Assembly (NCBI GenBank): GCA_017537025.1
Contig: JAFWCB010000009.1
Location: 59,443-123,442 of the forward strand
Direction of reading: 5' to 3'
Length of the DNA: 64,000 bases
Origin: Sediminibacterium sp.
Lineage (GTDB): Bacteria; Bacteroidota; Bacteroidia; Chitinophagales; Chitinophagaceae
The notes under the pieces are model-generated. The model saw only the letters and a program-made list of their open reading frames with translations. It had not been told where the DNA came from and made no database searches. Each line of letters opens with the position of its first letter. Positions within the stretch are counted from its first letter, which is position 1. Shown here one piece after another: positions 542 through 64,000 of this stretch. The position numbers were made by a program, and so were the translations under genes.

Positions 542-1744
542 TTGAACTACCGAAAAATTACTGCCACACAAATTTTTGACGGTCATAGATTCCTTGCATC
601 AGGAACTGTAATCATATTTGATAGTACCGGCACAATCGTAGATATCATATCTAAAGAAGAGGCGGGAGAAGATGTAGAAAATGTTGAAGGTATTCTTTGT
701 CCGGGTTTTATAAATGCACACTGCCATCTTGAGCTCAGCCACATGAAAGGTTTGATACCTGAGCATACTGGACTCCAAGATTTTATTGTAGATGTTGTTG
801 GTAAACGCCATTTCCCGGAAGAAGAAATACGACATGCGATTACCAATGCAGAAAAAGAAATGATTGCCGACGGCATTATTGCAGTAGGAGATATTTGTAA
901 TAACACGCACACTATTTTTCAGAAACAACAAAATAATATAGCCTATTATAATTTTATAGAAGTAAGTGGTTGGAACCCATCTATTGCGCAAGCCCGTTAT
1001 GAGCATTCAAAAAAAATATTCGAAGCATATCAATTCAAACCTCATAATTCAAAATTCATAATTCAAAATTCCTCTCTATCCCCCCACGCTCCCTATTCTG
1101 TTTCGAATGATTTATGGGATTTATTAACGCCACATTTCCCCGGAAAAACAATAACTATTCATAATCAAGAATCGGCTGCAGAAAATGAACTATTTAAAAC
1201 CGGTACGGGGAAATTTAGAGATATGTATGCGAAGATGGGATTAGATGATAGCCATTTTACACCAACAGGAAAAACAAGTTTACAATCTTATTATCACAAA
1301 CTAAGCAAGGCGTCACAAAAGATACTGGTTCATAATACGTTTATTTCAGAGGAAGATATTTTAAATCTTCAATCTGGTTCGCCTAGGCGAATCAATCTGA
1401 AATCTGATATAGCTAAAAGTAACTTATCTACTGTCTATGGTCAATCGTCTATGGTCTTTTTCTGCCTCTGCCCAAATGCCAACTTATACATCGAAAATAG
1501 GTTGCCTCCCATTGATTTATTACGCAAGAACAATTGTACTATTATTTTAGGCACAGATAGTTTAGCCGGTAATCATAAACTCAGCATTAAATCAGAAATC
1601 AAAACGATTCAAAAACATTTCCCTCATATTCCATTGGAAGAAATTTTAGGATGGGCTACAATCAACGGGGCACGTGCCTTACAAATGGATACAACTCTTG
1701 GTAGTTTTGAAAAAGGGAAGCAGCCGGGATGGGCAGTTTTATAG
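542..1744 (+). CDS. Amidohydrolase-superfamily metal-dependent deaminase/hydrolase
   Basis: 400 residues. The metal-binding pattern of the amidohydrolase superfamily is visible: NAHCHLELSH (HxH) near residue 60, SPHAPYSVS and IHNQESAAENE in the middle, HNTF later, and the terminal metal Asp in LGTDSLAGN. The fold is that of cytosine deaminase, SAH deaminase and aminodeoxyfutalosine deaminase; the substrate cannot be chosen from sequence. The start is TTG two bases after the higA stop; no ATG lies before the HxH motif. Two regions look foreign: about residues 168-178, made of the heptamers ATAATTC and AAAATTC, and residues 275-306, carrying the palindrome TTCGCCTAGGCGAA and GTCTATG repeats. 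Both keep the frame. Confidence 0.8.
   Translation: MNYRKITATQIFDGHRFLASGTVIIFDSTGTIVDIISKEEAGEDVENVEGILCPGFINAHCHLELSHMKGLIPEHTGLQDFIVDVVGKRHFPEEEIRHAITNAEKEMIADGIIAVGDICNNTHTIFQKQQNNIAYYNFIEVSGWNPSIAQARYEHSKKIFEAYQFKPHNSKFIIQNSSLSPHAPYSVSNDLWDLLTPHFPGKTITIHNQESAAENELFKTGTGKFRDMYAKMGLDDSHFTPTGKTSLQSYYHKLSKASQKILVHNTFISEEDILNLQSGSPRRINLKSDIAKSNLSTVYGQSSMVFFCLCPNANLYIENRLPPIDLLRKNNCTIILGTDSLAGNHKLSIKSEIKTIQKHFPHIPLEEILGWATINGARALQMDTTLGSFEKGKQPGWAVL
1044..1071 (+). repeat. Four-unit heptamer array inside the amidohydrolase gene
   Basis: The 7-base units ATAATTC and AAAATTC alternate twice (28 bases). They are read in frame in the amidohydrolase as a segment ending in FIIQNSS, just before the conserved SPHAPYS motif. 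The period of seven is the same as in the other arrays of this window. Confidence 0.85.
1378..1461 (+). repeat. Palindrome plus GTCTATG repeats inside the amidohydrolase gene
   Basis: A perfect 14-base palindrome TTCGCCTAGGCGAA (1378-1391) is followed by AATCTGA-like units and, from about 1433, two copies of GTCTATGGTC separated by one AATC. The block translates in frame to about 30 residues between the HNTFISEED region and the CLCPNANLYIENRLP block of the enzyme, a place where relatives usually have only a short linker (family knowledge). Confidence 0.7.
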
Positions 1745-1760
1745 AGCAGGGACATCAGAT

Positions 1761-1795
1761 ACGAGTTGCGGGTTGCGAGTTACGAGTTACGGGTT
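1761..1795. repeat. Five-unit heptamer array between convergent genes
   Basis: Five consecutive 7-base units of the pattern RCGRGTT: ACGAGTT, GCGGGTT, GCGAGTT and then two more. They occupy most of the 105-base gap between the amidohydrolase stop and the end of the convergent methyltransferase gene. No clear hairpin terminator is visible in this gap. Confidence 0.9.
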
Positions 1796-1849
1796 CAATG
1801 CTACTCTTCTCATTGCCCTTAGCCCAAAGTGTTATTATTAGTTATATTT

Positions 1850-2485: not shown

Positions 2486-2518
2486 ACAGTAAAGTTAAAC
2501 AAACAAATAAGGTTGATA

Positions 2519-3256: not shown

Positions 3257-3262
3257 ACCGAT

Positions 3263-4013: not shown

Positions 4014-5129
4014 TTATACCACACCTGTGAATTGTTTAAGAAAACGTATATCATTTTGAGAATACAATCGTAAATCATTCACCTGATATTTTAATTGCGT
4101 AATGCGCTCTACACCCATACCGAATGCAAAGCCGGTATATTTATTGGAGTCGATACTAAAATTCTCCAACACATTGGGGTGCACCATACCACTACCTAAA
4201 ATTTCCACCCAACCACTGTGTTTACAAATATTACATCCGTCGCCACCACATATTAAACAACTGATATCCATTTCCGCACTTGGCTCTGTAAAGGGAAAAT
4301 AACTGGGACGAAAACGCACTTTTACATTTTTGCCAAACATCTCCTGAACAAAAAAGTATAGTGTTTGCTTCAAATCCGCAAAACTTACTTGTTCATCTAC
4401 ATATAAGCCTTCTACCTGATGAAAAAAACAGTGCGCCCGTGCACTTACCGTTTCGTTTCTATAAACCCTACCCGGACAAATAACCCGAATAGGCGGTTTT
4501 TGTGTTTCCATAACCCTTGCCTGCACGCTGCTGGTATGTGTTCGTAATAACCAAGTGGCACCATTGGCCTCTGTGGGCTTATTAATGTAGAAAGTATCCT
4601 GCATATCGCGAGCAGGATGATCTTCGGGTAAATTCATAGCACCGAAATTGTGCCAATCATCCTCTATTTCAGGGCCTTCGGCTACTGCAAATCCCAATCT
4701 TTTAAAAATGGAAACAATTTCATTACGCACTAAACTCAATGGGTGACGAGTACCTACAGGTATGGGTTCTCCGGGGAGGCTATAGTCGAGATTCGGCTTG
4801 CCCGACTCCTTGGAGGCGGGGTTTCGACCCTTCAACGAGCTCAGGGTGACATCGGGTTGCTCATTTCGAGATTCGAGATGCGTGTTACTTAATGAGGCTT
4901 GCAATTCCTCAAAACGCGCTTCAGCAAAGAGTTTGAAGTCGTTAAGTATTTGTCCGAATGACTTTTTTTGATCCGCAGGTACCTGCTTCATTTCACCCAT
5001 CACCGCTTTTACTAAGCCCTTAGTACCTAAATATTTTATACGAAACTGCTCTAGGGCTGTGGCATCGCTAATAGTAGCCGCCTGCATCTCGGCCTTATAG
5101 CCCTCAATTTGCTGCAATAATGCTTCCAT
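4014..5129 (-). CDS. pheS: Phenylalanine--tRNA ligase alpha subunit
   Basis: 371 residues. The N-terminal coiled-coil arm (about 1-80) is followed by the class II core: the LGTRHPLS-like entry VGTRHPLSLVRNE, motif 2 GRVYRNETVSARAHCFFHQ, and motif 3 GFAFGMGVERITQLKY near the C terminus. A cysteine cluster, CLICGGDGCNICKHSGW, with four Cys in CxxC pairs, sits before WVEILGSGMV and may bind zinc. Between the arm and the core, about residues 78-117 are a repeat-derived insertion containing DVTLSSLKGRNPASKE, where relatives have a short linker. The gene leads a minus-strand run with the desaturase, recO and a methyltransferase. The beta subunit is not in the window. Confidence 0.95.
   Translation of the reverse strand: MEALLQQIEGYKAEMQAATISDATALEQFRIKYLGTKGLVKAVMGEMKQVPADQKKSFGQILNDFKLFAEARFEELQASLSNTHLESRNEQPDVTLSSLKGRNPASKESGKPNLDYSLPGEPIPVGTRHPLSLVRNEIVSIFKRLGFAVAEGPEIEDDWHNFGAMNLPEDHPARDMQDTFYINKPTEANGATWLLRTHTSSVQARVMETQKPPIRVICPGRVYRNETVSARAHCFFHQVEGLYVDEQVSFADLKQTLYFFVQEMFGKNVKVRFRPSYFPFTEPSAEMDISCLICGGDGCNICKHSGWVEILGSGMVHPNVLENFSIDSNKYTGFAFGMGVERITQLKYQVNDLRLYSQNDIRFLKQFTGVV
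4801..4898 (-). repeat. Composite CAGGGTGACA element and heptamers inserted in pheS
   Basis: On the plus strand, a near-palindrome starting CCCGACTCC and ending GGAGGCGGGG (4801-4821) is followed by a segment ending GAGCTCAGGGTGACA (to 4851). Next comes TTTCGAGATTCGAGAT, two 7-base units of TCGAGAT type. All of it is translated within pheS without breaking the frame. The pairing of CAGGGTGACA with a CCCCGCC/GGCGGGG hairpin recurs at 58968-59010. Confidence 0.75.
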
Positions 5130-5970: not shown

Positions 5971-5973
5971 CCT

Positions 5974-6001
5974 TATTCCCTATTCCCTCCACCCTATCCC
6001 C
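5974..6001. repeat. Four-unit heptamer array between DUF4290 gene and murA
   Basis: Units TATTCCC, TATTCCC, TCCACCC and TATCCCC fill 28 of the 39 intergenic bases. The array ends 8 bases before the murA ATG, leaving no Shine-Dalgarno-like sequence. It belongs to the same period-seven class as the other arrays. Confidence 0.85.
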
Positions 6002-6009
6002 TAAAAAAC

Positions 6010-9538: not shown

Positions 9539-10826
9539 AACTAAATTTAGTTTTTTCAGTCTCATATTTTTAGTTTCTGTCTTAGCCTTGAAAACAGAAG
9601 CTCATCCAATGCCTAATAGCATTATAAAGCTCTTTGTAATGGATCGGGCAATAAAAGGGGAGGCATATATTCCATTTTTAGAGCTTGAAAATGCATTAGT
9701 AGATAATAAGCAGCGCCTCTCGGATAAGCTATTTCTTCAAAGCTATTTTTTAAAACATATTCGAGTACGATCAGGAGATAAAGATTGGGATATAAAAATT
9801 GATACGCTAATTTTTAGTTATTCGAAAAATGAAATTGTAGGAAATTATAAAGAATTAAAAATTAGTTTTTACTTAACGCCTAAAATAAAGGATAGCTTAA
9901 GAAATTTCACGCTTTATTATGACGTAGTGGTTCATCAGGTAATTAATCACTCCGTTATAGTCATGCTGTCGCAAGATTGGCAAAATGGTATACACGAAGA
10001 AACTAAAACCAAAGAATTAGGCACTATTGGTTACGATGTGATCAACAGTAAAATTTTACCCTTATCTATTAATTTAGATGCCGGCAGTAAGTGGATAGGC
10101 TTTATGTCTATGATAAATATGGGCATGCAACACATTAAAAAGGGGACAGATCATTTACTATTTTTAATGACACTATTACTTCCTGCTTTTTTAATAGCTG
10201 AAAATAGAAAATGGACCAGCTATAGTGGAATCAAAAAAGGTGTTTATAAGGTTCTATTGATAGTGTCTGCTTTCACCATTGGTCATTCGATAACTTTATT
10301 TATTGCTGCATGTAACCTATTTAAACTTCCTACACAACTGATTGAAGTTACCATTGCGCTATCGATTTTTATTTCTGCCTTTCATTGTGTTATTCCCGTA
10401 TTTTATAAGAAGGAGATCCTGATAGCATTAGGATTTGGCTTTGTGCATGGCTTGGCATTTTCGCAAACACTTCAGATATTTCAACTTGAAAAGATAGACT
10501 TACTCATTAGTATATTAGGATTTAACCTAGGAATTGAAGCCATGCAACTTATTATCATTTTAATGATTATACCATCTTTTATTTTATTAAGTCCAACTAT
10601 TTTTTTTAGCGTTATAAAAAATACGCTGGCTGTATTTGTAATGATAATCGCGTTAGGTTGGATATTTCAACGAATAACAAACGTGTCGAATCCAATAACT
10701 GAATTAGCTGAAATCATATTCGAACATGCCAATTGGTTAATACTTATTATTTCAGTATTGGCATTAATACTTTACTGGATAGACTTTACAATAAAGACGA
10801 AAAAAGTTTTTAGATATAGGCAATAA
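9519..10826 (+). CDS. HupE/UreJ-like membrane protein
   Basis: 435 residues. An N-terminal signal segment (SLIFLVSVLALKTEA) precedes an extracytoplasmic domain of about 160 residues. Several membrane helices follow, carrying the HupE/UreJ signatures GTDHLLFLMTLLLPAF and FTIGHSITLFIAA, plus GFVHGLAFSQTL. HupE/UreJ proteins are linked to nickel or other transition-metal uptake in hydrogenase and urease systems. No such enzyme is nearby, so the substrate is open. It starts inside the end of the DUF3500 gene and is followed directly by a strong hairpin. Confidence 0.82.
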   Translation: MGLRSHKTKFSFFSLIFLVSVLALKTEAHPMPNSIIKLFVMDRAIKGEAYIPFLELENALVDNKQRLSDKLFLQSYFLKHIRVRSGDKDWDIKIDTLIFSYSKNEIVGNYKELKISFYLTPKIKDSLRNFTLYYDVVVHQVINHSVIVMLSQDWQNGIHEETKTKELGTIGYDVINSKILPLSINLDAGSKWIGFMSMINMGMQHIKKGTDHLLFLMTLLLPAFLIAENRKWTSYSGIKKGVYKVLLIVSAFTIGHSITLFIAACNLFKLPTQLIEVTIALSIFISAFHCVIPVFYKKEILIALGFGFVHGLAFSQTLQIFQLEKIDLLISILGFNLGIEAMQLIIILMIIPSFILLSPTIFFSVIKNTLAVFVMIIALGWIFQRITNVSNPITELAEIIFEHANWLILIISVLALILYWIDFTIKTKKVFRYRQ

Positions 10827-18837: not shown

Positions 18838-19936
18838 TATGTAAAATAGCAGTAGCATTATCCCTCGGATTAGTTGATGAACAAGGAATTTTGCGGACTT
18901 GCATCTCCGGATTTTCTCTTCGCAAAAGGCCATTAATATATAACTTGTCATAATACTTAAGCAGAATAGCAAAACAACGATGTATATCTTTTTCCAATAA
19001 AAAATTCACAGCATTCTTTGTTTCTAATCCACCTAATTTTTTTTGAATACGCAAAATCGCATTAACTAATTTATCCTGATCATATTTACCATAGCTCTGC
19101 ACAATATTATCTAATCGTTCTGCAAATGGAATATCTAAAAACAAAACGGGTTTACTGCGCATAGTATTGAATAAATTACCCGGAATATTTACTTCTCCAA
19201 TACGTTGGCTTTCGTCTTCAACAAAAATAGTGTGTAGTGGATAGTGTGTAGTGGGTAGTTTCTTACTACTCACTTCCCACTTCTCACTATTCACTATTGC
19301 GCTAAGCGCATTCGCTAAGTCATTCTCAAACTGTTCTTGGGTTGGCTGTTTAGGCATACCCAAATTACCAAAGGCGGAACCTTTATGGCAAGCGATGGCT
19401 TCAAGATCTATTACAGCAGCACCTTTTGCAGCTAATGCAGATAGTAATTCTGTTTTACCACTACCGGTATAGCCACCAATTATAGTAATAGGATAATCTT
19501 TTTGAAATTGCGCTAACACCCATTTTCGATACTGCTTATATCCCCCTACTAATGAATAAACTTTAAACCCATAGAGATCCAATAGCCAAGCAACCCCCGC
19601 GCTACGCATACCACCACGCCAACAATGTACCAATACCACTTTCTTACTTTGCACTACCCACTTTTCACTATCCACTAATGCTTCCACCTCTTCCACCATC
19701 TTCACCATTTTCTTTCCAAAATATTTCAATCCGATTTTTATCGCTTTCTCCCTACTCTCTTTTTTATATGCCGTACCTACTACTTTTCTTTCTTCGTCTG
19801 TAAAAAGTGGAAGCGAATATGCTCCGGGAATATGGGCGTGTTCAAACTCACCGGGGCTACGTACATCCAACACAGGATGTGATTCAGCCAGTTTTAAAAA
19901 CTCATCAATATTTAATTTTGTAATAGCCACATACAA
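18812..19936 (-). CDS. selU: tRNA 2-selenouridine/geranyl-2-thiouridine synthase
   Basis: 374 residues. The N-terminal rhodanese domain shows VLDVRSPGEFEHAHIPGA and the active-site Cys in VLVHCWRGGMRS; the C-terminal P-loop domain has IIGGYTGSGKTELL. SelU (MnmH) replaces sulfur by selenium at the wobble 2-thiouridine of some tRNAs via a geranylated intermediate. No selD is in the window. Two in-frame insertions made of heptamer repeats are seen, encoding SEKWVVQSKK near residue 90 and SEKWEVSSKK near residue 220. The start is TTG at 19936; a GTG at 19930 is an alternative. It is divergent from the SixA-like gene. Confidence 0.88.
   Translation of the reverse strand: MYVAITKLNIDEFLKLAESHPVLDVRSPGEFEHAHIPGAYSLPLFTDEERKVVGTAYKKESREKAIKIGLKYFGKKMVKMVEEVEALVDSEKWVVQSKKVVLVHCWRGGMRSAGVAWLLDLYGFKVYSLVGGYKQYRKWVLAQFQKDYPITIIGGYTGSGKTELLSALAAKGAAVIDLEAIACHKGSAFGNLGMPKQPTQEQFENDLANALSAIVNSEKWEVSSKKLPTTHYPLHTIFVEDESQRIGEVNIPGNLFNTMRSKPVLFLDIPFAERLDNIVQSYGKYDQDKLVNAILRIQKKLGGLETKNAVNFLLEKDIHRCFAILLKYYDKLYINGLLRRENPEMQVRKIPCSSTNPRDNATAILHIIPTPSIP
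19225..19298. repeat. Double heptamer array with opposed arms inside selU
   Basis: Left arm: GTGTAGT, GGATAGT, GTGTAGT, GGGTAGT (19232-19259), preceded by AAATAGT. Right arm: TACTACT, CACTTCC, CACTTCT, CACTATT, CACTATT (19264-19298). The arms are roughly reverse complements of each other, so a hairpin is possible. The block is translated in selU as about 25 residues including SEKWEVSSKK and LPTTHYPLHT. Confidence 0.88.
19637..19679. repeat. Second heptamer array inside selU
   Basis: Units CACTACC, CACTTTT, CACTATC and CACTAAT (19652-19679) follow a TTTCTTACT leader. The same leader precedes the right arm of the array at 19225-19298. My hand alignment of the two sites gives 30 identities in 36 bases. 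It encodes SEKWVVQSKK just before the rhodanese active-site motif. Confidence 0.85.
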
Positions 19937-21343: not shown

Positions 21344-22497
21344 GGCTGCAAAGATATTTTATTATTATCGTAAATAGCCTCTAATAACACGGTGAGGTCT
21401 TCCTCCTTAAACGCAATGAGTTCTTTGAATGAATAATTAAAAGAACTAGCGGCTGCGAGTGTACTTTTATTAAAAGTCTTCTGTGTAACCGAAAAAATCT
21501 GGTTTTGCTGCATCAAAATCTCTGCTAAGTAGGCTTGCTCTGTTTGTCCGGGTGTTGGCACTACAATTAATTTCTTTTTTAATACCAATAACTCCATTAA
21601 AGAAGTATAACCACCTCTGCAAACGATATATTCACTTTGCTGTAATACTATGGCCAGTTCATTGGTGGGGAGATGGTTATAGATAGTAGACGGCAGACGG
21701 TAGACGGTAGAAGGTAGATTAGAATTATGTATCTCAAAACTTATCTCCGGTCCTTTGTCTCCGGTCTCCTGTCTATTTAGTATTCCTCTTACAATCACCA
21801 TTTCTTCTTCTACTTCGGAAACTAATTCGAAAACCATCTCCTCAAAAATTGTTCTTTGTGGTTCGGGGCCTGAGATCAAAAAGCAGTATTTGTATGTAAT
21901 AGCTGTATCTATTTTCTTGAATCGCGATAATAAATTAATATACTGAACAGGTACTTGAGGTAAAACATGGGGATGCGATAATTTACCTGCTATTCCTTCA
22001 ACCATATCGGGTACCCAACAACTTGTAAACCTGTTGACCCATCTGTATAAAAAATATTGACTAATTCTTTCCAGTAATGTATTATTTAGATGCAATTGCA
22101 ACTGGTGGGTAATAAAAATTGTGGGTATTTTTTTGTGATATAACCCGTACCGATTATCGGCAATAACTAAATCAATTTTTTCTTCTTCAACAACCGATTC
22201 AAGCCATCTATTCTCCCGAATGATGGTATGGAGAATTTTTGGAAGTTGTTGTATAATTTTAAAGAAGAATAAGCTGCCATTTACCGGATACCTTATTCCA
22301 TAGCCCTTCAACCTTAACCCCTTTATTTGCGGAAATTCGCGTTCAAACAAAGCAATTTGAGCTTTTTCGCCGGCAACTAAAACATTACAACCCTGTGCGA
22401 GCAAGCTATTGATTATAGGTATACATCGGGTTGTATGTCCAAGCCCCCAATCGAGTGGGGCCACCAAAACTGTTAAATCCGTATATTTTTTCTGCAA
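21340..22497 (-). CDS. Glycosyltransferase-like protein (GT-B fold)
   Basis: About 385 residues from the TTG at 22497. A TTG at 22539 would add 14 residues but overlap the divergent small lipoprotein gene. The body begins TVLVAPLDWGLGHTTRCIPI, a GT-B nucleotide-sugar enzyme opening with the Gly-His-rich loop of MurG/GT28-like proteins. The C-terminal donor domain has IVCRGGYTSLMELLVLKKK and PTPGQTEQAYLAEIL, also GT28-like. Donor and acceptor are unknown. About residues 240-272 are a repeat-derived insertion including GDKGPEISFEIHN and STVYRLPSTIYN. It is coupled to the EamA gene. Confidence 0.8.
   Translation of the reverse strand: MQKKYTDLTVLVAPLDWGLGHTTRCIPIINSLLAQGCNVLVAGEKAQIALFEREFPQIKGLRLKGYGIRYPVNGSLFFFKIIQQLPKILHTIIRENRWLESVVEEEKIDLVIADNRYGLYHKKIPTIFITHQLQLHLNNTLLERISQYFLYRWVNRFTSCWVPDMVEGIAGKLSHPHVLPQVPVQYINLLSRFKKIDTAITYKYCFLISGPEPQRTIFEEMVFELVSEVEEEMVIVRGILNRQETGDKGPEISFEIHNSNLPSTVYRLPSTIYNHLPTNELAIVLQQSEYIVCRGGYTSLMELLVLKKKLIVVPTPGQTEQAYLAEILMQQNQIFSVTQKTFNKSTLAAASSFNYSFKELIAFKEEDLTVLLEAIYDNNKISLQP
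21681..21778. repeat. Paired heptamer arrays inside the glycosyltransferase gene
   Basis: First block 21681-21715: AGATAGT, AGACGGC, AGACGGT twice, AGAAGGT. Second block 21744-21778: TCTCCGG, TCCTTTG, TCTCCGG, TCTCCTG, TCTATTT. About 28 bases containing TTATGTATCTC separate them. All of it is read through in frame on the minus strand. GACCGGAGACA, in the second block read on the minus strand, also occurs at the 3' end of cysS. Confidence 0.88.
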
Positions 22498-32940: not shown

Positions 32941-32962
32941 TGCAAAGAAAGAATACATAATT

Positions 32963-35844: not shown

Positions 35845-37349
35845 TAATTAATTGTAAAACTTACTCCTCCATCTTTTTCATCTTTGAGCTGAACGCCAAG
35901 AGCGGCAAGCTCATTGCGAATTTTATCGGAGGTTACAAAATCTTTGCGTTGCTTGGCTTCTTTGCGAATATTGATAAGTAATTGCAGTACTCCTTCCAAC
36001 TTATTATTATCGGCAGTTTTTGTGGTTACGAGTCCGAAGATATCGGTAATAAAGGCTTTGAGTTGTTCTTTTAATAAGGAAACCGTAGCTGCAGAGAGCG
36101 TATGCTTAGCTATATGTTTATCTTTTAAGGCGTTGATAATAGGAACAATTTCAAAAATATTTGCAATTACTTTAGCCGTATTCAAATCGTCGTTCATAAA
36201 CTCACTAAACTCATTCACGAGTTTTGTGAGTTTTTCATTGAGGGCAGTATCCGTTCCAACAGTAGCTTCCGCAAAGTTTTCTTGCATAAACCAATCATAC
36301 GCTTCCATTAATCTGCGCAAAGCTTTTTCACTGCCTTGTAAGGCGTCGTTACTAAAATCGAGTGTGCTGCGGTATTGCGATTGTAAAATAAAAAAGCGGA
36401 TAGTAGAAGGTGCATAAGCTTGTGTGAGCATCGGGTGATTACCACTGAACAATTCACTCAGTTTAATCACATTACCATAACTCTTACCCATTTTTTTACC
36501 ATTGATGGTAATCATATTATTGTGTAACCAATAACGCGCAGGTAATTTATGATTGCAAACAGTACTCTGTGCAATTTCACACTCATGATGCGGAAATTGT
36601 AAATCCATTCCACCGCCATGTATATCAAATTCCTCTCCTAAATATTTAGTAGCCATGGCCGAACACTCGATATGCCATCCTGGGAAACCTTCGCCCCATG
36701 GGCTTTGCCAGCGCATAATATGTTCGGGTGGTGCTTTTTTCCAAAGTGCAAAATCGCTTTTGTTACGTTTCTCCTCTTGGTTATCGAGTTCGCGGGTAGT
36801 ATCGAGTTGGTCGTCTAATATTCTTCCACTTAAAACACCGTAAGGTTGACCTTTAACAGAAAAATCGGTATTATACTTTTCTACATCAAAATAAACAGAG
36901 CCATTTGCTTCATAGGCATATCCATCTTTAATGATGTTTTTAATCATTTCAATTTGCTCTACAATATGGCCTGTTGCAGTTGGCTCTATACTTGGCGGGA
37001 GATTATTAAACTGCGTCATTCCCCAATGGAAAAGATTCGTGTATTTCTGCACCAGTTCCATGGGTTCCAATTTTTCTAAAATGGCTTTCTTGGTAATTTT
37101 ATCTTCTGCCTCGCGACCTTCTTCTTCAAAATGTCCGGCATCGGTAATATTACGCACATAACGCACTTTATACCCAAGATGCATCAAATATCGATACACC
37201 ACATCGAATGTAATAAAAGGGCGGGCATGCCCTAAATGACTTTCGCCACTTACGGTTGGTCCGCACACATACATACCCACATATGGGGTATTAATAGGTT
37301 CAAATACTTCTTTTTTCCGGGTAAGTGAGTTATATACTTTGAGCGCCAT
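35844..37349 (-). CDS. cysS: Cysteine--tRNA ligase
   Basis: 501 residues, full length. The class I HIGH motif reads HLGHARPF (H38-H41), preceded by the zinc-ligand Cys29 in YVCGPTVSG. Further zinc/Cys ligands are in [10 protein letters not shown] and HHECEIAQ, and the KMSKS motif is KKMGKSYGN. The C-terminal helical domain is present ([20 protein letters not shown]). It charges tRNA-Cys. It stands at the end of a dense minus-strand run (rlmD, two rhomboids, two EEP proteins), 15 bases after the EEP gene. Its TAG stop abuts a heptamer array. Confidence 0.96.
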
Positions 37350-54637: not shown

Positions 54638-55364
54638 TAAGTATTAATCTACCACTTATAGCTGCTCTTTCTTTTAGTAATACATCCCATTGCTCCGTGC
54701 CATTCCAGAAAATTTTTTTGATCTCAGCTAAAGCCTCTGTGCTCGACTTTGATAATGTTGTAGATAAACGTGTAATAGCATCGTCCATACCCGCGATATC
54801 TTTATGCAATTCTGCAAATAAACCCTTTTTTCGAGCCCAATCTGCCGGGCGATACATGGTGGCATCGATGGTGAGTTGAGAAAATGCAGACAATCCTATT
54901 TTTCGCTCAACAGCCGGACCTACTACGAAAGGACCGATACCTACTGCTAATTCACTGAGTTTTACTTCCGCTGCTTCACAAGCGATAGCATAATCTGCAG
55001 CGGCGGCTAATCCTACACCACCTCCAATACATTTACCTTGTACTCGGGCAATAATAATTTTACCACAGGTACGCATGGCATTAATGACATTAGCGAAACC
55101 ACTAAAAAATTTCAACCCCTCCGCTTCATTAGAAATAGCTGCCAGTTCATCAAAAGAGGCTCCTGCACAAAATGTTTTTTCACCGGCTGAGCGAAGAATA
55201 ATAACTTTTGTTTGTGGATCCTGACCTTCTGCGTGTATAGTTTTCGCTAATGCTTCTAATACTTTACCCGGTAATGAATTGCTCTGTGGGTGATAAAATT
55301 CAATGGTGGCAATACCGTGCTCACGTTCTGTTTTTACATACCCTTCTTTTATTTCTTCTATCAT
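54594..55364 (-). CDS. Enoyl-CoA hydratase/isomerase family protein
   Basis: 256 residues of the crotonase fold. Oxyanion-hole loops GEKTFCAGASFDEL and VQGKCIGGGVGLAAAADYAIA are present, and the acidic residue in VKLSELAVGIGP corresponds to one catalytic Glu. It lies 9 bases after paaZ, so it probably hydrates or isomerises ring-opened phenylacetyl-CoA derivatives as a PaaF/PaaG-type enzyme (inference from context). Its 3' end overlaps the glycosylase gene by 44 bases. Confidence 0.85.
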   Translation of the reverse strand: MIEEIKEGYVKTEREHGIATIEFYHPQSNSLPGKVLEALAKTIHAEGQDPQTKVIILRSAGEKTFCAGASFDELAAISNEAEGLKFFSGFANVINAMRTCGKIIIARVQGKCIGGGVGLAAAADYAIACEAAEVKLSELAVGIGPFVVGPAVERKIGLSAFSQLTIDATMYRPADWARKKGLFAELHKDIAGMDDAITRLSTTLSKSSTEALAEIKKIFWNGTEQWDVLLKERAAISGRLILSEYSKHFMASFKKK

Positions 55365-55373
55365 ATGTACTTT

Positions 55374-57431
55374 TTAATCTTCAATCTTCAGTCTTTTCTC
55401 CACCATCGTTAATATGGTTGCAATACCTACTAGTTCTTCATTCTCATCAATCATTTCAACCAACCATTTTACGATACCCTTGTCAATATCTGTGATTTCT
55501 TTTTTCTCCTGTTGAATTTTTTCTTTACAAGTAAACCGAACATACATAGTTGAACCCGGGTACATCGGTTTGGTGAAACGAAGTTCATCTATTCCATAAT
55601 TTAATAAAACAGGATTTTTTTCATAACTACTAACAAATAATCCCGCTGACATACTCATGAGTAGATAGCCATGTGCTACTTGGCGTTCAAACATCGTACC
55701 CGTAAAATCGGTACTGGTTAAATGTGCATAGAAATGATCTCCGCTTAAGTCGGCAAATGCATTAATATCTTCTGAAGTAATGGTTCTTTTTTCCGTAATA
55801 AGTTGATCGCCGATAGCAAGTTCTTCAAAATATTTTTTAAAGGGATGTATGGTATCGGTATTTCCCTTAGCTCCTTGTTGGTATACTCCACTGATAGCGG
55901 TAATCATGTCGGGAGAGCCTTGCACGGCTACTCTTTGCATATAGTGCTTCACTCCGCGTATACCGCCCATTTCTTCTCCACCACCTGCTCTGCCGGGCCC
56001 TCCATGTACTAATAGCGGAAGGGGTGATCCATGTCCGGTACTTTCTTTAGCACAATCATTATTTAATATCAATACCCTTCCATGATAGGTGCCGGCGCCA
56101 ATTACATAATCTTTAGCGATAGTAGGGTCTGCTGTTACAATAGAACTAACCAATGAGCCTTTCCCCATTTTTGCTAATGTAATGGCTTCTTCAATGGATG
56201 AATAAGGCATCATAGTTGCAACCGGACCAAAAGGTTCTGTTTCATGAACAACTGTATCGCCGAATGGATTTGTATTCAGGAGTAAAAGTGGACTCATAAA
56301 CGCACCTTTCTCAGCATCTGCATCAACGGTGCTTACGCTATCTAATGAGCCATATATAATTTGTGAGGAAGCGAGGATTTTTTGTACCTGAGATTTTACT
56401 TCTGTTCGTTGTGATTCTCCCGCCAATGAACCCATGCGTACTTTTTCATTCAACGGATTACCAATAATTGTTTGTGCTAAAGCCCTACCTAAAGCAATTT
56501 GTACATCTTCTATTTTATTTTCCGGAACAAAAATGCGTCGAATAGCGGTACATCTTTGTCCGGCTTTAGTTGTCATTTCTTTCCTAACTTCTTTAATAAA
56601 AATATCCCATTCAGGCATATTAGGTGTAATATCATTTCCTAGTACAATGCAGTTTAATGAATCTGCTTCCATTGTAAAGGGAACATTTTCTGCTACTACT
56701 TTTTTACCTGATTTCAACAATAATCCTGTTGACGCAGAGCCTGTGAACGTAACTACATCTTGTGATGTAACATGTTCTAATAAATCACCTGCACTGCCAC
56801 AAATCAGTTGTAAGGCTCCCTGGGGTAATATATCCGAAGCTATGATTTCTTTTACCACTGCTTCTGTTACATACGATGTTAGTGTTGCAGGTTTTACAAT
56901 AGCAGGCATACCGGCTAATAAGTTCACGGCAATTTTTTCGAGCATTCCCCAAACAGGAAAATTAAATGCATTGATATGGATAGCTACGCCCTCTTTAGGG
57001 ATCAATAAATGATGCCCCATAAAACTACCTGCTTTCCCCAGAATATGCTGTTCACCATCTAAACAATAAGGGGTATCGGGAAATTTCCGTCGAAGAGAAG
57101 CATATGAAAATAAGTTTCCTATCCCCCCTTCAATATCTACCCAACTATCGGCTTTTGTAGCCCCTGTTTGATAGCTGATATCATAAAATTTTGGCAAGTG
57201 CTCTCTCAAATGAAGTGCTAATGCTCGCAACATTAAACCCCGCTCATGAAAACTCATATGTCGCAATGCTATGTTGCCTTTTGTTCTGGCAAAATGAAGC
57301 GCGGCAGCAAAATCAATCCCTTTTGTACTGGCTTTGGCAATGGGCTCACCGGTTACAGCATTGAATAGTAGTTGCCCATCTCCTTCCCCTTTAATCCAAC
57401 TACCTTGAATATAGTTCTCTACCTGATACAT
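55374..57431 (-). CDS. paaZ: PaaZ-type bifunctional oxepin-CoA hydrolase / semialdehyde dehydrogenase
   Basis: 685 residues from the ATG at 57431; an earlier in-frame start adds 6 residues. The aldehyde dehydrogenase domain (about 1-520) has the catalytic Glu in FTMEADSLN and Cys in GQRCTAIRR, with the unusual GGIRGVKHYMQR ending typical of PaaZ. A C-terminal MaoC-type hydratase (about 540-680) shows DLSGDHFYAH and FERQVAHGYLLMS. PaaZ opens the oxepin ring in aerobic phenylacetate degradation and oxidises the aldehyde. The other paa genes are not in this window. An enoyl-CoA hydratase follows. Confidence 0.93.
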   Translation of the reverse strand: MYQVENYIQGSWIKGEGDGQLLFNAVTGEPIAKASTKGIDFAAALHFARTKGNIALRHMSFHERGLMLRALALHLREHLPKFYDISYQTGATKADSWVDIEGGIGNLFSYASLRRKFPDTPYCLDGEQHILGKAGSFMGHHLLIPKEGVAIHINAFNFPVWGMLEKIAVNLLAGMPAIVKPATLTSYVTEAVVKEIIASDILPQGALQLICGSAGDLLEHVTSQDVVTFTGSASTGLLLKSGKKVVAENVPFTMEADSLNCIVLGNDITPNMPEWDIFIKEVRKEMTTKAGQRCTAIRRIFVPENKIEDVQIALGRALAQTIIGNPLNEKVRMGSLAGESQRTEVKSQVQKILASSQIIYGSLDSVSTVDADAEKGAFMSPLLLLNTNPFGDTVVHETEPFGPVATMMPYSSIEEAITLAKMGKGSLVSSIVTADPTIAKDYVIGAGTYHGRVLILNNDCAKESTGHGSPLPLLVHGGPGRAGGGEEMGGIRGVKHYMQRVAVQGSPDMITAISGVYQQGAKGNTDTIHPFKKYFEELAIGDQLITEKRTITSEDINAFADLSGDHFYAHLTSTDFTGTMFERQVAHGYLLMSMSAGLFVSSYEKNPVLLNYGIDELRFTKPMYPGSTMYVRFTCKEKIQQEKKEITDIDKGIVKWLVEMIDENEELVGIATILTMVEKRLKIED
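55376..55396. repeat. Short heptamer run at the 3' end of paaZ
   Basis: AATCTTC, AATCTTC and AGTCTTT immediately precede the complement of the paaZ stop and encode its last residues RLKIED. Only three units, so the call is modest. Confidence 0.55.
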
Positions 57432-58917: not shown

Positions 58918-58967
58918 TCTTTGCGACTTTGCGTTGAAATATTAAACGCGAAGACGCAAAGGCGCTA
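58918..58967. repeat. CTTTGCGACTTTGCGTT palindromic repeat after kinase copy 2
   Basis: Reverse-orientation near-copy of the repeat at 32883-32940, centred on GTTGAAATATTAAACG, with the arm AAGACGCAAAGGCGCTA. It lies between msrB and the kinase 3' end. Compared with the other copy, about 16 bases (TAAGACGCCAAGTT region) are missing from one arm. Confidence 0.83.
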
Positions 58968-59010
58968 CCCTTCCCCGCCATGGCGGGGTAAACTAAGCTC
59001 AGGGTGACAT
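58968..59010 (-). repeat. Inserted TGTCACCCTGAGC element with CCCCGCC hairpin
   Basis: On the minus strand, ATGTCACCCTGAGCTTAG is followed by the perfect palindrome CCCCGCCATGGCGGGG (58973-58988). The segment is absent at the equivalent place after kinase copy 1 (near 32880), where the palindromic repeat directly follows the last codons. It supplies the final codons and the TGA stop of kinase copy 2. Confidence 0.85.
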
Positions 59011-61374
59011 GGGTATCTCAATCTTAAACGTTGTTCCCTTTCCTTGTTCACTCTCCACAGTTAGCTTACCTCCATGCACTTTCGTAACAATATCATAAGC
59101 CAAGCTTAATCCCAATCCCGTTCCTTGTCCGGTGGGTTTGGTGGTGAAAAAAGGCTGGAAGATCTTCTCTTTGATTTCGCTTGGTATGCCCGTGCCGTTG
59201 TCGGATACTGTGATTTCAATTTTATTCCCTAAGTTTTTGGTGCTTACAGTAACTGTTGGGCTATAAGGTGTAAGCTGTAAGCCGGAAGGAATACCTTTTT
59301 CCTCACTACTTATTGCTTCAACCTTATGGCTTATAGCCTCTTCCTTCCCCCTTTCGCCTACGGCGAAAAACGCATTATTGATCAAATTCAATACCACCCT
59401 TCCCATATCCTGCGGAACGATATTTACTTTTGGTATCGTTTCATCAAACTCCGTTTTAAATTCTGCATTAAAGTTCTTGTCTTTTGCCCTTAAGCCATGA
59501 TAAGCCAATCTTAAATACTCATCACATAAAGCATTGATATCCGTTGGTTCTTTTTGTCCGCTTGAGGTTCTGGAGTGCTGCAGCATGCCCTTCACAATTG
59601 CCGCTGCTCTTTGTCCATGATGATTGATTTTTTCGGAGTTGGATTGAAGGTCTTTTAGAATATCTTGCTGATCGGCTGTCACCCCGAGCTTGTCGAGGGG
59701 TCCCAGCTCTTGTAACAATTCATTATTTAGCTCCGAGAAATTATTCACAAAGTTCAGCGGGTTCTGAATCTCATGTGCAATACCTGCCGTAAGTTCTCCA
59801 AGGCTTGCCATCTTCTCGGATTGTATTAACTGCTGTTGGGTAGATTTGAGTGTATTGAGGTTCTTTTTATTGATTTGTAATTGGCGATTTACATAATACA
59901 ATGCAAAAACAACAACTAAAATTCCTATTAACGAAATCCATAGTAATAAATTATTTTTTTGTATCAAAGCATTTTGAATAGCATTCTTTTGCTTCATGGT
60001 ATTTAAACTATCCAATTGCTGCAATTCTTTTTTCTCAATTTCGTAATAGGAAATTTTTAATGGTGCTAACGATGCGTCTGTTTCCTTTGTTAATGAATCC
60101 AGTTGGTTGTTGTATAATTTGTAATGAGTAAAATCATTGATAGATGCATAATAGTCTTTAAAAGCAGCTAAATATTTTTTTTGAGCATCTGCTACTTTGC
60201 TCTCATTAGCTTTTTGTAAAGCCATAGTTAAATATGCCAATGCCTTTTGTGGCTGATCTTTTTTCGAATAATACAAGAATTTCCCGTAGTCAATTTCTAA
60301 TGCTCCGAAGTTTGTGTTAAAAGCCCTGCGAATACTGTCTGCCAATTGTTGGGCAATTGCTAAATTGCTTAAACCGTCTTCCGGTTTTCCGGTCTCTATT
60401 AAACAAATTCCTTTTTCAGTAAATATTCTCGATAAAAAATCAAAGTCACTCACACCATTTACACAATATTTTATTAAACTATCACAATAGCTAATACATT
60501 TTTCGTATTTTTTTCCAATAAGCGCTATTGTATTTGCTTGTCCAAAACTATTTTTTAAAATTGCAAGATTAGACAAACGGAAACCAATGGATATAGTAGA
60601 ATCAACAAGTAATTCCCCCCGTGTTGGGTTACCCCAATTTGCATATTCATCTGCTGCAACAGATAAGCTATTACAAAATGTACCTGTGTTGTACTCTTTA
60701 TAAATATCTGCAGCTTTTAAATAATTCGAAATGGCCCTGTTATAGGCGGCCTTAATGTTGTAATAACCACCCAAAGCATGGTAACAAGCAGCCATATTTG
60801 GTCTATTATTTCTAGTGGTGTAGAGCTTTAGCTTTTGCTCATAATATTGATATCGTTCTTCCTGAATATTTAAAGAATAATAGTATAAACGTAAAGTTGA
60901 CAACAAAGCTGGAATAGAATTATTGAACTGATCAAATAATTCAATGGCTTGTTTTATTAATTGGAATCGTTCTATATTTTTTGAAGAAGGGTCATTTATT
61001 TCCCTGAACTGAAGTTGTTTTTGATAAGCTCCATAGTCGGGGTGGTTTAATTGTCGCTTCAACGCTACCAATTCTTTTAAAAAACTTAAACCAATTTTAT
61101 TACCTGTTGCTACAGAAACTTTTAGCGTACCTATTAACCCATTGTCTACATATTGATTTAATAATTGTACCCTTATGGTTGGATTTTTCTCCTTAGATAA
61201 TGCTGCCAATAGGGAGTCTATTTTAGGATCATTTTTTTTATCATTTAAGATCAACGTAGAGGTTGCTGGATTAAAGTCGGGGAATAAGCTTTTTCGAACA
61301 GAGTCCAGAACCCGTGTTTGAGATTGAGCAGCTGCGACTATAATCAGAAAGATAATGAGCAATTGTTTTTTCAT
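58999..61374 (-). CDS. TPR-containing sensor histidine kinase (copy 2)
   Basis: 791 residues from the ATG at 61374, which starts a signal peptide ([18 protein letters not shown]). A TPR region of about 440 residues follows, with a membrane helix ([20 protein letters not shown]). The kinase core has H534 in [13 protein letters not shown] box [17 protein letters not shown] and [15 protein letters not shown]. The catalytic half is nearly identical to copy 1, including both repeat insertions, whereas the TPR half differs. The last three residues (MSP) and the TGA come from a repeat element. It is tandem with two more kinases upstream and has no response regulator nearby. Confidence 0.9.
59261..59368 (-). 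repeat. Heptamers and hairpin in kinase copy 2
   Basis: CTATAAG, GTGTAAG and CTGTAAG (59261-59281) and the interrupted palindrome TTTCGCCTACGGCGAAA (59352-59368) flank an insertion of about 30 residues in the ATPase domain, matching copy 1 in place and content. Confidence 0.83.
59676..59703 (-). repeat. CTGTCACCCCGAGC element in kinase copy 2
   Basis: 28-base segment identical in placement to 32187-32214, read in frame as [10 protein letters not shown]. It contains CTGTCACCCCGAGCTTGTCG. Confidence 0.82.
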
Positions 61375-61477
61375 ACAAAATCTTGTAGAAGTAAGGTACA
61401 AAATATAGTGGTGAAGAGGGTAAAATTTGACAAATACGGATTCTAATTCCATATTCTTCAAACAAATAGTTAATAGA

Positions 61478-63613
61478 TCATGATATAGGCAGGGTTATAA
61501 TAAACTTGGTTCCGCCCATTCCCATCGCTCTATTGGGTAAGCCATTAATTGTTGTGCTCTCAACCATTATCTCTCCACCATGTGCTTTCACAATATCGTA
61601 CGCTAAGCTTAGCCCCAACCCCGTTCCTTGTCCTGTTGGTTTGGTGGTGAAAAAGGGCTGGAAGATTTTTTCTTTGATCTCACTAGGTATCCCCGTGCCG
61701 TTGTCGGATACTGTGATTTCAATTTTATTCCCCAAGTTTTTGGTGCTTACAGTAACTGTTGGGCTATAAGGTGTAAGCTGTAAGCCGGAAGGAATAACTT
61801 TTTCCTCACTACTTATTGCTTCAACCTTATGGCTTATAGCCTCTTCCTTCCCCCTTTCGCCTACGGCGAAAAACGCATTATTAATCAAATTCAACACCAC
61901 CCTTCCCATATCCTGCGGAACGATATTTACTTTTGGTATCGTTTCATCAAACTCCGTTTTAAATTCTGCATTAAAGTTCTTGTCTTTTGCTCTTAGTCCG
62001 TGATACGCTAGTCTTAAATACTCATCACATAAAGCATTGATATCCGTTGGTTCTTTTTGTCCGCTTGAGGTTCTAGAGTGCTGCAGCATTCCCTTTACGA
62101 TTGCCGCTGCTCTTTGTCCATGATGATTGATTTTTTCAGAGTTGGATTGAAGGTCTTTTAGAATATCTTGCTGATCGGCTGTCACCCCGAGCTTGTCGAG
62201 GGGTCCCAGCTCTTGTAACAATTCATTATTTAGCTCCGAGAAATTATTCACAAAATTTAATGGGTTCTGTATCTCATGAGCAATGCCGGCTGTGAGCTCA
62301 CCTAATGATGCCATCTTCTCGGATTGGATGAGTTGGGTTTGGGTGGATTTCAGTTCTTGCAAGGTACTTTCTACTTTTTCTTTCTGTTCTTGTAAGACTA
62401 AATTCGCTTTCTGCTTTTGGCGATTGTTTCGGTAAAATACAAAAGCAAGTATTGATAACAACCCTAATCCGGCGAATAAAGCAGTAGTTCTGATTTTATT
62501 TTTAGAAGCCAGATTTTCCTGAGCTTCTTTTTCCAGCCGCAGTTGTTCTTCAAAATTGACATTTTGAAATTTATTTATTTTGTTGCTCCAATCCTTTGAT
62601 AAGCTATCACCTATAGTCTTTGAAATAGTAAGATAAACAAATGCACTGTCTAAATTTCCCTCTTCCTTCCAAAGCAAGGCAAGAAGGCCTGCTGAAGTAC
62701 CTTTTACTATTTCAGCAGATTTAAAATTTATTGCCTCAAAAAATGCATTTTTTGCATAGTATTTAGCCGAATCCCGACGTTTTAATTTTGCGTATAAGTA
62801 GGCAAGGTTAAGGCTCGTATTAATTTCACTTCGACTGTTTTTTTGTTGCCGGCTTGCCAATAAACTTTGCCAATAATAATACTTTACGGAATCAATCTTA
62901 TTTCTTTTTAAATACACTAAGCCGAGTGAACGCAATATTATACCGTTAAAAATTCTCCAGCCAGTAGTTTCTGAGTAACTCAATGCACGTTTATTATAAA
63001 TAATAGCCGAATCCAATTTATCAGTATCAACAAAAAATTGTCCAATATTCATATTGCCTTGTACAAAAGCCATTGACTTTGTACTTTCAAGTGTTTTAAA
63101 AATTTCAAGTTCATCTTTATAATATTGAATTCCTTTTTCGGTATTTCCTGCAGTCAAATAAATATTTCCGAATTGATGAAATGTGTAACCCATCTGGCTT
63201 AACCTGAATTTATGAGGATCAGTAAATTCATAATTTTTGGGGATGAATACTCCTTTCTCATTTTTTTCATCCTTTTCAATATCCAATGCTTCGTTAGCCA
63301 ATTTTAAACTAAGGGTAAGGTTTCCAGTTTGTGCGGCAAGATAGGATTGATACTCTGTAAAAAAGTGGGCTATCCATAAAGGTTGATTCATTTTTTTTGC
63401 TATTCTCACTCCTTCGTCTGCGAATAACAAACAGCTATCCCGATTATTCTCTGCATAATTGCCCGCAAGATCAAAAAGAACAACCATTTTAGTCAACTCA
63501 TCAGGTGCAGTTGTTAAAGCAGTTTTCAGACTGTCCAAATTGGTTTGCCAAACCTGCGCTTTAGAAAAAAAGGGGAGTGTGAAAAAAAATAAGATTTTTA
63601 TGTACTGCTTCAT
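61478..63613 (-). CDS. TPR-containing sensor histidine kinase (copy 3)
   Basis: 711 residues: signal peptide (KQYIKILFFFTLPFFSKAQ), TPR region (about 25-360), membrane helix (TTALFAGLGLLSILAFVFY) and a short coiled coil. The kinase core follows with H446 in [12 protein letters not shown] and DNGTGIP. Both repeat-derived insertions are present. The last 30 residues differ from copies 1 and 2 (VKAHGGEIMVESTTING and a longer end), marking the limit of the shared tract. It starts 8 bases before the end of the next kinase gene's coding region on the minus strand and is one of three in tandem. Confidence 0.9.
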   Translation of the reverse strand: MKQYIKILFFFTLPFFSKAQVWQTNLDSLKTALTTAPDELTKMVVLFDLAGNYAENNRDSCLLFADEGVRIAKKMNQPLWIAHFFTEYQSYLAAQTGNLTLSLKLANEALDIEKDEKNEKGVFIPKNYEFTDPHKFRLSQMGYTFHQFGNIYLTAGNTEKGIQYYKDELEIFKTLESTKSMAFVQGNMNIGQFFVDTDKLDSAIIYNKRALSYSETTGWRIFNGIILRSLGLVYLKRNKIDSVKYYYWQSLLASRQQKNSRSEINTSLNLAYLYAKLKRRDSAKYYAKNAFFEAINFKSAEIVKGTSAGLLALLWKEEGNLDSAFVYLTISKTIGDSLSKDWSNKINKFQNVNFEEQLRLEKEAQENLASKNKIRTTALFAGLGLLSILAFVFYRNNRQKQKANLVLQEQKEKVESTLQELKSTQTQLIQSEKMASLGELTAGIAHEIQNPLNFVNNFSELNNELLQELGPLDKLGVTADQQDILKDLQSNSEKINHHGQRAAAIVKGMLQHSRTSSGQKEPTDINALCDEYLRLAYHGLRAKDKNFNAEFKTEFDETIPKVNIVPQDMGRVVLNLINNAFFAVGERGKEEAISHKVEAISSEEKVIPSGLQLTPYSPTVTVSTKNLGNKIEITVSDNGTGIPSEIKEKIFQPFFTTKPTGQGTGLGLSLAYDIVKAHGGEIMVESTTINGLPNRAMGMGGTKFIITLPIS
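61764..61871 (-). repeat. Heptamers and hairpin in kinase copy 3
   Basis: CTATAAG, GTGTAAG and CTGTAAG (61764-61784) and TTTCGCCTACGGCGAAA (61855-61871) mark the same ATPase-domain insertion as in copies 1 and 2. Confidence 0.83.
62179..62206 (-). repeat. CTGTCACCCCGAGC element in kinase copy 3
   Basis: Same 28-base in-frame segment as in copies 1 and 2, read as [10 protein letters not shown]. Confidence 0.82.
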
Positions 63614-63621
63614 TTTAATAC

Positions 63622-64000
63622 TTAAATGGGTAATTGAACACTAAATGTAGTTCCTTCTCTTTCTTTACTTTCTACTTTCAATTCGCCCCCATGCCCTTTT
63701 GTTACGATATCATACGCAAGGCTCAACCCTAGCCCCGTTCCTTGTCCGGTTGGTTTGGTGGTGAAGAAAGGCTGGAAGATTTTTTCTTTGATCTCATTTG
63801 GTATCCCCGTTCCGTTGTCGGATACTGTGATTTCAATTTTATTCCCCAAGTTTTTGGTACTTACAGTAACTGTTGGGCTATAAGGTGTGAGCTGTAAGCC
63901 GGAAGGAATACCTTTTTCCTCACTACTTATTGCTTCAACCTTATGGCTTATAGCCTCTTCCTTCCCCCTTTCGCCTACGGCGAAAAACGCATTATTAATC
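63622..64000 (-). CDS. Sensor histidine kinase (copy 4), C-terminal part, cut by window edge
   Basis: The frame is open from the stop at 63622 to the window end and continues outside; the ATG at 63849 is internal. Visible parts are the N-box end (NNAFFAV), the repeat-derived insertion, [30 protein letters not shown] and [15 protein letters not shown]. The ending GTTFSVQLPI differs from the other copies. It is 8 bases upstream of copy 3 in the same direction, so the kinases may be co-transcribed. Its sensor half is not visible. Confidence 0.85.
   Translation of the reverse strand, partial: INNAFFAVGERGKEEAISHKVEAISSEEKGIPSGLQLTPYSPTVTVSTKNLGNKIEITVSDNGTGIPNEIKEKIFQPFFTTKPTGQGTGLGLSLAYDIVTKGHGGELKVESKEREGTTFSVQLPI
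63878..63985 (-). repeat. Heptamers and hairpin in kinase copy 4
   Basis: CTATAAG, GTGTGAG and CTGTAAG (63878-63898) and TTTCGCCTACGGCGAAA (63969-63985) show the same insertion as in the other three kinase copies; one base differs in the middle heptamer. Confidence 0.8.

Follow-up and report, generated by a model that had tools for sequence, protein, structure and literature searches.

Introduction

This study concerns arrays of heptanucleotide units, many of them paired in inverted orientation, dispersed over 64,000 nucleotides of the genome of Sediminibacterium sp. (contig JAFWCB010000009.1, positions 59,443–123,442; hereafter the window), and their relation to S23 genes. Several described systems resemble these arrays. 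The intervening sequence (IVS) of Coxiella 23S rRNA is bounded by terminal inverted repeats and carries an S23 gene, which is preceded by three tandem heptamers (GACAGAT) (PMC4990558). The likeness lies in the S23 gene, the stem-forming terminal inverted repeats and the preceding heptamers, whose number in the IVS varies between strains; unlike the IVS, which sits in 23S rRNA, the arrays here lie between and inside protein genes, are mostly gene-less and have long heptamer arms (PMC4990558). Pairs of the Sediminibacterium genome (the host genome) have terminal inverted repeats but are not inserted in 23S rRNA, and those of the window enclose no gene.

The GGGAATC / GGGGAYT repeats of Xanthomonas and Nostoc share degenerate 7-nt units, convergent pairs and placement at or over stop codons (PMC4692102). 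Convergent pairs number 70 in Xcc and 75 in Xac, 83% of sites are common to the two species and the single or paired type is mostly kept (PMC4692102), where 'convergent' appears to correspond to our purine-first order. Unlike those repeats, with one G-rich unit per genome, the arrays of the host genome have several units, in-frame copies and re-spelled shared sites, and its units do not conform to GGGANTN. TAACTGA repeats (Beggiatoaceae, cyanobacteria and Bacteroidetes) are likewise heptamers with stops in all frames in one orientation, as stated in PMC4679880, which also describes other heptamers grouped together in some Bacteroidetes and in Microcystis, and 7-nt indels between strains. They differ in being mainly one unit, in Maribeggiatoa mostly before start codons and with one inverted pair (PMC4679880). 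TAACTGA is not among the host units, but its rotation CTGATAA fits their NNNRTAR rule described below. The heptanucleotide families of Geobacter metallireducens are also dispersed between and within genes, one class being drawn as a looped inverted form; unlike ours, each class has one consensus and is read as regulatory (PMC2700814). Repetitive extragenic palindromic (REP) sequences and bacterial interspersed mosaic elements, which are associated with REP-associated tyrosine transposases (RAYTs), form inverted dimers 3' of genes, provide TAG stops for open reading frames (ORFs) and lie partly in genes; they differ in having a defined hairpin and a partner transposase (PMC3733652). The RAYT of the host genome accompanies another palindrome.

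The host genome contains several unit families and not one homologous sequence, and many of its units have no G-tracts, which bears on the G-quadruplex formation considered for repeats of the Xanthomonas type. Rickettsia palindromic elements are also inserted in frame into proteins, but their copies are mutually homologous, unlike the several unit families found here. The short tandemly repeated repetitive sequences of cyanobacteria are likewise heptanucleotide arrays.

The initial annotation of the window proposed that the family may be undescribed. Its parts are in print (PMC4679880, PMC4692102, PMC4990558), and we found no report joining them; in the literature searched, which mostly excluded subscription journals, no report linked heptamer arrays in general to S23 genes or described the replacement of units at sites common to two species. 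If the arms are parts of S23 elements, the commonness of heptamers, the function of orphan S23 genes and the nature of rRNA IVSs become one testable system, and sister species with different spelling at one site show how arrays are rewritten and which protein loops tolerate them.

Heptamer arms around S23 genes

In unrelated bacteria S23 genes have heptamer arms beside them far more often than background would give, and the same arm families also stand alone, without a gene. Because of this association, the array pairs of the window are best understood as derivatives of S23 elements that lack the gene; this is the simplest reading and the one that we favour, if by a modest degree of belief. 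A full element would comprise two convergent, purine-first arms of 7-nt repeats around an S23 gene, which encodes a four-helix-bundle protein (Pfam 23S_rRNA_IVP, a family that takes its name from rRNA IVSs). This bundle is related to Avd of diversity-generating retroelements.

The association was measured at 34 S23 loci (nine plasmid, 22 viral-contig and three from sampled genomes). A lag-7 array lies within 150 nt upstream of 26, downstream of 18 and on both sides of 16, whereas 21 of 457 control windows taken from these loci contain one. The set includes near-identical members (L377-379 with L396; L380-381; L382-383; L384-386; L369-370), and when loci with the same flanking arrays are counted once the figures are 18, 15 and 13 of 26. 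Period 7 is the best of periods 5–13 upstream of 32 and downstream of 24 of the 34 loci. Among the 16 two-sided loci 12 are purine-first, one is pyrimidine-first and three are neither, and the flanks are inverted above all 60 shuffles in six of nine plasmid loci (9 of 12 plasmid records were used). The arm units are diverse (GGGAACA, GGTGACA, AAGGTTT, GCAGAAG, TAGTGGT, GAGAGTG), those of Nostoc and Anabaena plasmids being heptamers. S23 gave no match in phage records, and the plasmid genes are surrounded by ordinary gene rows, in two cases with cas6 on one side and cas4 on the other. In these two cases (L365 and L366, Pseudanabaena and Anabaena plasmids) the heptamer-armed gene stands in a type I-D-like CRISPR row.

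GxxExxY genes served as a control family: six plasmid copies, from all 6 of 6 plasmid records, have no lag-7 array, and their flanks are inverted above all shuffles in three of six, with periods near 9. Inverted arrays of 8–9-nt units accompany the GxxExxY (PDDEXK_3) genes at C23:83333-83778 of the host genome, L371 and L373. GxxExxY genes with such arrays are likely to be a sister class of S23 elements.

S23 or GxxExxY genes are rare in the sampled genomes. Of the six found, three have arrays on both sides (host, G031 and L163), L301 has one on its only visible side (contig edge) and L243 and L246 have none; the baseline is 8 of 363 host genes with arrays on both sides. One site common to the host and its sister species G031 holds different cargo. 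At C23:83333-83778 (L088:3333-3778) a GxxExxY gene (PF13366, E 2.5e-39) stands between octamer arms in the host, and an S23 gene (PF05635, E 2.6e-28) between heptamer arms in G031. The latter arms belong to the CGAGATT/CCCGTAT family, which also occurs alone in the selU and glycosyltransferase genes of G031.

Arrays of the window and the host genome

The features of the window are as follows, with the strand where one is assigned and the G031 counterpart where compared.

1032–1071, plus strand: heptamer array AATTCAA/AATTCAT, in frame in the amidohydrolase gene (542–1744); G031 has CAGATTT units of the same length
1378–1391: palindrome TTCGCCTAGGCGAA, adjoining the second amidohydrolase array; gapped out in G031
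1425–1459, plus strand: heptamer array GTCTATG, in frame in the amidohydrolase gene; GTCTACC in G031
1751–1795: heptamer array GAGTTAC/GGGTTGC, 7 nt past the amidohydrolase stop; a short stretch of the same family in G031 by eye
4839–4851, minus strand: TGTCACCCTGAGC element within pheS, part of 48 nt extra relative to G031
4865–4890, minus strand: heptamer array CGAGATT in pheS, weak; G031 has TTGACCA units
5971–6003: heptamer array CCCTATT directly past a stop codon; CTTTTAC units in G031
19228–19298: convergent heptamer pair, TAGTGGG arm then its complement, in frame in selU; CGGGTTG pair in G031
19646–19677: array of the TAGTG family, the second in selU; none in G031
21680–21784: inverted heptamer pair, GTAGACG and CTCCGGT arms, in frame in the glycosyltransferase gene; GAGTTGC/CTCGAAT pair in G031
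32201–32213, minus strand: TGTCACCCCGAGC element in a histidine kinase gene
32522–32538: REP-like hairpin TTTCGCCGTAGGCGAAA on the border of the kinase insert
32531–32630: inverted heptamer pair, AAGGNNN and CTTACAG arms, past the kinase N-box
35803–35845, minus strand: array of CACTATG heptamers, 3' end of gene 35844–37349
55345–55395, minus strand: heptamer array TCTTCAA where two genes meet
58973–58988: hairpin CCCCGCCATGGCGGGG, from the hairpin scan
58997–59009, minus strand: TGTCACCCTGAGC element at a kinase 3' end
59260–59368: inverted pair and hairpin, paralogous kinase copy
59677–59689, plus strand: TGTCACCCCGAGC element, kinase copy
61763–61871: inverted pair and hairpin, paralogous kinase copy
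62180–62192, plus strand: TGTCACCCCGAGC element, kinase copy
63877–63985: inverted pair and hairpin, paralogous kinase copy, gene cut by the window end

The dispersed period-7 family that had been proposed from the window is real by comparison with both control lags and simulated sequence. At a strict threshold the window contains nine lag-7 segments; when multiples of 7 are left aside, 20 lags remain from 2 to 24, of which 16 give none and lags 3, 9, 12 and 15 give one each. A windowed count gives five at lag 7, and each of 10 simulations from a third-order Markov model gives none. Repeats of period 7 or 14 were called by Tandem Repeats Finder at 1032–1071, 1760–1795, 9774–9801, 19227–19259, 19646–19676, 21686–21718, 21744–21774 and 32537–32568. 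The pheS array noted previously is present, but it is weak (score 9.1). The wider sample comprised 400 kb of the 3.19-Mb host genome, 464 kb with the window; genes were called with a custom script, which missed two ORFs. The 400 kb contain 52 lag-7 segments, against a mean of 5.0 for lags 5, 8, 10, 11 and 13, part of which reflects genuine octamer arrays, and the best period is 7 or 14 in 65 of 118 repeat calls in the 464 kb. Period 7 is not a law, being contradicted by existing octamer and 12-mer arrays. Array density across 25 genomes of the genus, including the host, ranges from 0 to ~32 per 100 kb (samples of 14–400 kb).

From 79 registered arrays the host unit can be written X1 X2 N R T A R, where X1X2 sets the family. 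As a universal rule RTAR was rejected: it beats the reversed control in 55 of 65 host arrays, but in 8 of 16 in G031, 13 of 22 in other members of the genus and 82 of 169 in other phyla (among the matches listed, as is the set itself, at least 118 contigs picked by one TAGTG pattern), so that the grammar is specific to the host genome. There, 61 of 65 arrays are closer to an array at a distant locus than after permutation of the unit letters, and some arrays are of mixed family or have other repeats inside them.

Where two neighbouring arrays are no more than 80 bp apart, they are usually in inverted orientation (15 of 18 in the host sample with the window; 59 of 89 in contigs of other phyla, among the matches listed). 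The purine-rich arm comes first in 14 inverted pairs against one in the host sample with the window (12 against one when the three kinase copies included in the 14 are counted once), in nine against none in sampled relatives (two neither) and in 49 against seven in other phyla (three neither; among the matches listed). Ordinary 9-bp inverted repeats of the host genome show no polarity (37 against 40). The pyrimidine-first exceptions are host L087:18741-18838, the seven in other phyla and, by eye, one in G036 (L121); of the two inverted pairs in G031 one is purine-first and the other neither. For snap-back copying of one arm from the other, the identities within hairpins and between loci of the same family (12 hairpins) point both ways: 0.74 versus 0.79 for TG, 0.83 versus 0.84 for TT and 0.62 versus 0.74 for GC (inflated by the kinase copies), but 0.72 versus 0.65 for GG.

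Of the 61 array clusters, 31 lie no more than 15 nt from the 3' end of a gene, 21 are in genes (including the three kinase copies), five are intergenic and four lie at 5' ends; random placement would give 4.0, 49.3, 5.7 and 2.0, respectively. In the NNNRTAR orientation three units create TAG or TAA stops in all frames. GTAG-type REPs often supply TAG stops (PMC3733652). Rfam gave no match in the window.

The same sites in the sister species

G031 is ~81% identical in DNA to the host over two window stretches; the other stretches compared (L083, L087, L079) were picked for array richness, four L079 clusters having no orthologous stretch that we found and four of six L083 clusters lying outside the coverage. 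Fourteen sites were compared. Eleven carry an array in both species, nine of them with different units. At the eight window sites G031 has six called arrays, a seventh, shorter stretch by eye and one absence; at five further sites it has four arrays, one of which (L087:18702) is a flanking called array of the same family by eye, and one absence. At the fourteenth (C23:81378-81420) the in-gene 'array' of the host is native protein sequence in both. The differing units (host versus G031) are AATTCAA versus CAGATTT, GTCTATG versus GTCTACC, CGAGATT versus TTGACCA, CCCTATT versus CTTTTAC, CAATCTT x4 versus CAATCGT x4 (equal length) and ACGATAG-type versus GTTATAG-type; the differing pairs are TAGTGGG versus CGGGTTG, GTAGACG versus GAGTTGC and, in both arms, TG.RTAG versus TC.RTAG. 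Since most comparable sites are common to the two species, the spread is partly old.

The initial annotation held that the arrays lie inside genes without breaking the frame, under selection on total length. This is borne out by the differences from G031 at eight coding sites (0, 30, 48, -3, 3, -6, 0 and 69 nt, in fixed alignment windows), all multiples of three; three sites not wholly in a gene differ by 26, 4 and 2. The host and G031 loops are longer than those of relatives in the glycosyltransferase (86 amino acids in the host, 88 in G031 and 68–69 in nine other aligned relatives) and in the amidohydrolase (69, 59 and 51 in seven others). These alignments include 10 of 13 relatives (G010, G033 and G035, with one internal stop each, were excluded) and 8 of 13 (five with split or partial matches were excluded), respectively. 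Both selU arrays fall within loops of variable length, in an alignment of 19 of 30 loci with the L021 row in the wrong reading frame.

The kinase domain has been duplicated with its inserts (300-nt copies at 76–94% identity, tandem histidine kinases, window 59009–63925), so that the kinase arrays go back to a single duplication of that domain and not to the four separate insertions counted earlier. The fourth kinase encodes a nearly identical insert. Query residues 587–615 of the kinase have no counterpart in the alignment to the solved structure 3a0r.

At one site a whole heptamer pair is present in G031 (L350 reverse 933-1042) and absent from the host (L087:16021-16034). In this single case of a filled and an empty site, GAAGTGGT stands on both sides of the pair, the upstream gene stops at a TAG within the array instead of its native stop, and the downstream gene start is kept.

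Origin of the arrays

If the pairs derive from S23 elements, full elements would insert at gene borders and permissive loops, and the gene would be lost or never have been present, in the manner of miniature inverted-repeat transposable elements, leaving solo pairs. Slippage and template switching within and between arms may then re-spell the units in concert, and inside genes survival would be limited to length changes divisible by three. The unit rewriting is probably slippage with template switching in a genus without detectable SbcD. Within the window the earlier remark that no transposase can be seen is correct; at other loci, however, S23 genes lie between such arms.

Several observations weigh against a derivation from S23 elements. 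In eight of the 34 S23 loci arrays are missing from both sides (L387, L388, L389, L398, L363, L243) or present on one side only, although heptamers at L363 are visible by eye and were rejected by the low-complexity filter; in Pseudanabaena the arms are direct and not inverted repeats; and no S23 gene was found in the window or the 400-kb host sample, the rest of the genome not having been searched. The unit family is kept at two of the 11 shared sites, and two octamer arrays are nearly unchanged between the host and G031. The GAAGTGGT duplication may be due to chance because the first unit itself reads AGTGGTC, and S23 genes may be passengers landing in arrays and not their cause.

A wider proposal is tentative and, taken whole, rather doubtful: S23 genes with convergent 7-nt arms could constitute one widespread, unrecognised class of small mobile element, with the IVS as one branch and solo pairs as its commonest form, in which S23 would guide a host polymerase in laying and re-spelling the repeats and GxxExxY with 8–9-nt arms would be the sister class.

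It is unlikely that no mobile element is involved and that heptad-step slippage and template switching in replication make and rewrite convergent arrays, with S23 genes merely nearby. The dominance of period 7, the concerted change of units and the commonness of heptamers in bacteria (Mrazek 2007, as cited in PMC4679880) are consistent with such a process, as is the detection of SbcD_C in none of 16 genus members against 6 of 14 controls, a loss that would make palindromes tolerable. However, neither the purine-first polarity (49 versus 7, among the matches listed) nor the S23 association is predicted, and SbcD_C is missing from array-poor members too. Loss of SbcCD was accordingly rejected as a discriminator, the domain being undetected in all 16 genomes, array-rich and array-poor alike. 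SbcD_C is present in the Bacteroides control.

The 31 of 61 clusters at 3' ends, and the retention of hairpins while units differ, would also be expected of RNA hairpins selected at gene ends (terminators or RNase III sites), whose structure is kept while the sequence is free; RNase III is known to cut out rRNA intervening sequences (PMC4990558). Many arrays are single, however, 21 clusters lie inside genes, and structure requires neither period 7 nor polarity, which makes this explanation improbable.

Transposition of REP/RAYT type, in which a Y1 transposase would make use of a tetranucleotide resembling GTAG (RTAR), is very improbable, even though RTAR occurs in most host units and Y1_Tnp is found in 9 of 12 array-bearing against 4 of 13 array-poor members (Fisher P 0.047; G033, one of the nine, falls short of the Pfam cut-off), as well as in 20 of 29 array-bearing genomes from other phyla (30 contigs, completeness not known; among the matches listed) against 5 of 14 controls. 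G027, G072 and G062 bear arrays without Y1_Tnp, G036 has three Y1_Tnp matches and no array in 52 kb (one pair in L121), the host RAYT gene is flanked by GAGCTCCGTAGGAGCG palindromes and not by heptamer arrays, and RTAR is not preferred elsewhere. A RAYT as sole motor was thus rejected, being correlated with the arrays but not required.

There is equally little to recommend end-extension and fusion, in which purine-rich 7-nt units are added at the 3' ends of a break and the ends joined as in head-to-head telomere fusions: purine-first polarity, other elements at hairpin centres (L074:17148-17314, L089:11665-11812) and the existence of bacterial reverse transcriptases that add tandem repeats (DRT10, 9-nt repeats; PMC12632851) would agree with it, but RVT_1 occurs in one of eight array-bearing and two of eight array-poor members (some genomes incomplete), so that a telomerase- or DRT10-like enzyme shows no association with arrays, and Ku occurs in one of 16 genus genomes, by which non-homologous end joining was likewise rejected.

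Hairpins and other repeats

The hairpins and TGTCACCC are repeats separate from the heptamer arrays, and the single family of heptamers and hairpins in the initial annotation is therefore replaced by distinct repeats: two of eight TGTCACCC elements have a called array no farther than 150 bp away (as do 4.6% of random points), the pheS element adjoining a weak array, and hairpin placement differs, with 20 intergenic, 17 in genes and two at 3' ends. Perfect hairpins (7-bp stem, at least four G/C, loop of 2–4) number 39 in the 464 kb against a mean of 12.5 in two simulations, and array-poor relatives show no excess (20 against 18). TGTCACCCTGAGC occurs at five window sites with at most two mismatches (two exact) against 0.53 expected, and in 21 exact copies in the host genome, where the reversed control gives none; it extends into a CCCTTCGACAAGCTCAGGGTGACA-like element.

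The host hairpins are taken as REP-like because palindromes of similar build, by eye, flank the RAYT gene of the host genome. This RAYT-like Y1 transposase gene (L117:1375-1860, G000:C19 near 692,239) has GAGCTCCGTAGGAGCG-type palindromes on its flanks; a second Y1 match (C23:584720) is below the Pfam cut-off.

Octamer arrays of AGTCCGGA and CGTCAGAA types and a 12-mer, some convergent, occur at L082:14563-14606, L082:16727-16866, L279:910-995, L273:644-969 and L092:2047-2120. Both kinase ends (window 32886–32950 and 58920–58970) carry a long imperfect palindrome with CGCAAAG/AAGACGC-like units, which resembles the octamer arms around GxxExxY genes. At L089:11665-11812 a TGTCACCCTGAGCTTGTCGAAGGG element and an octamer-like stretch occupy the centre of a heptamer pair, forming nested repeats.

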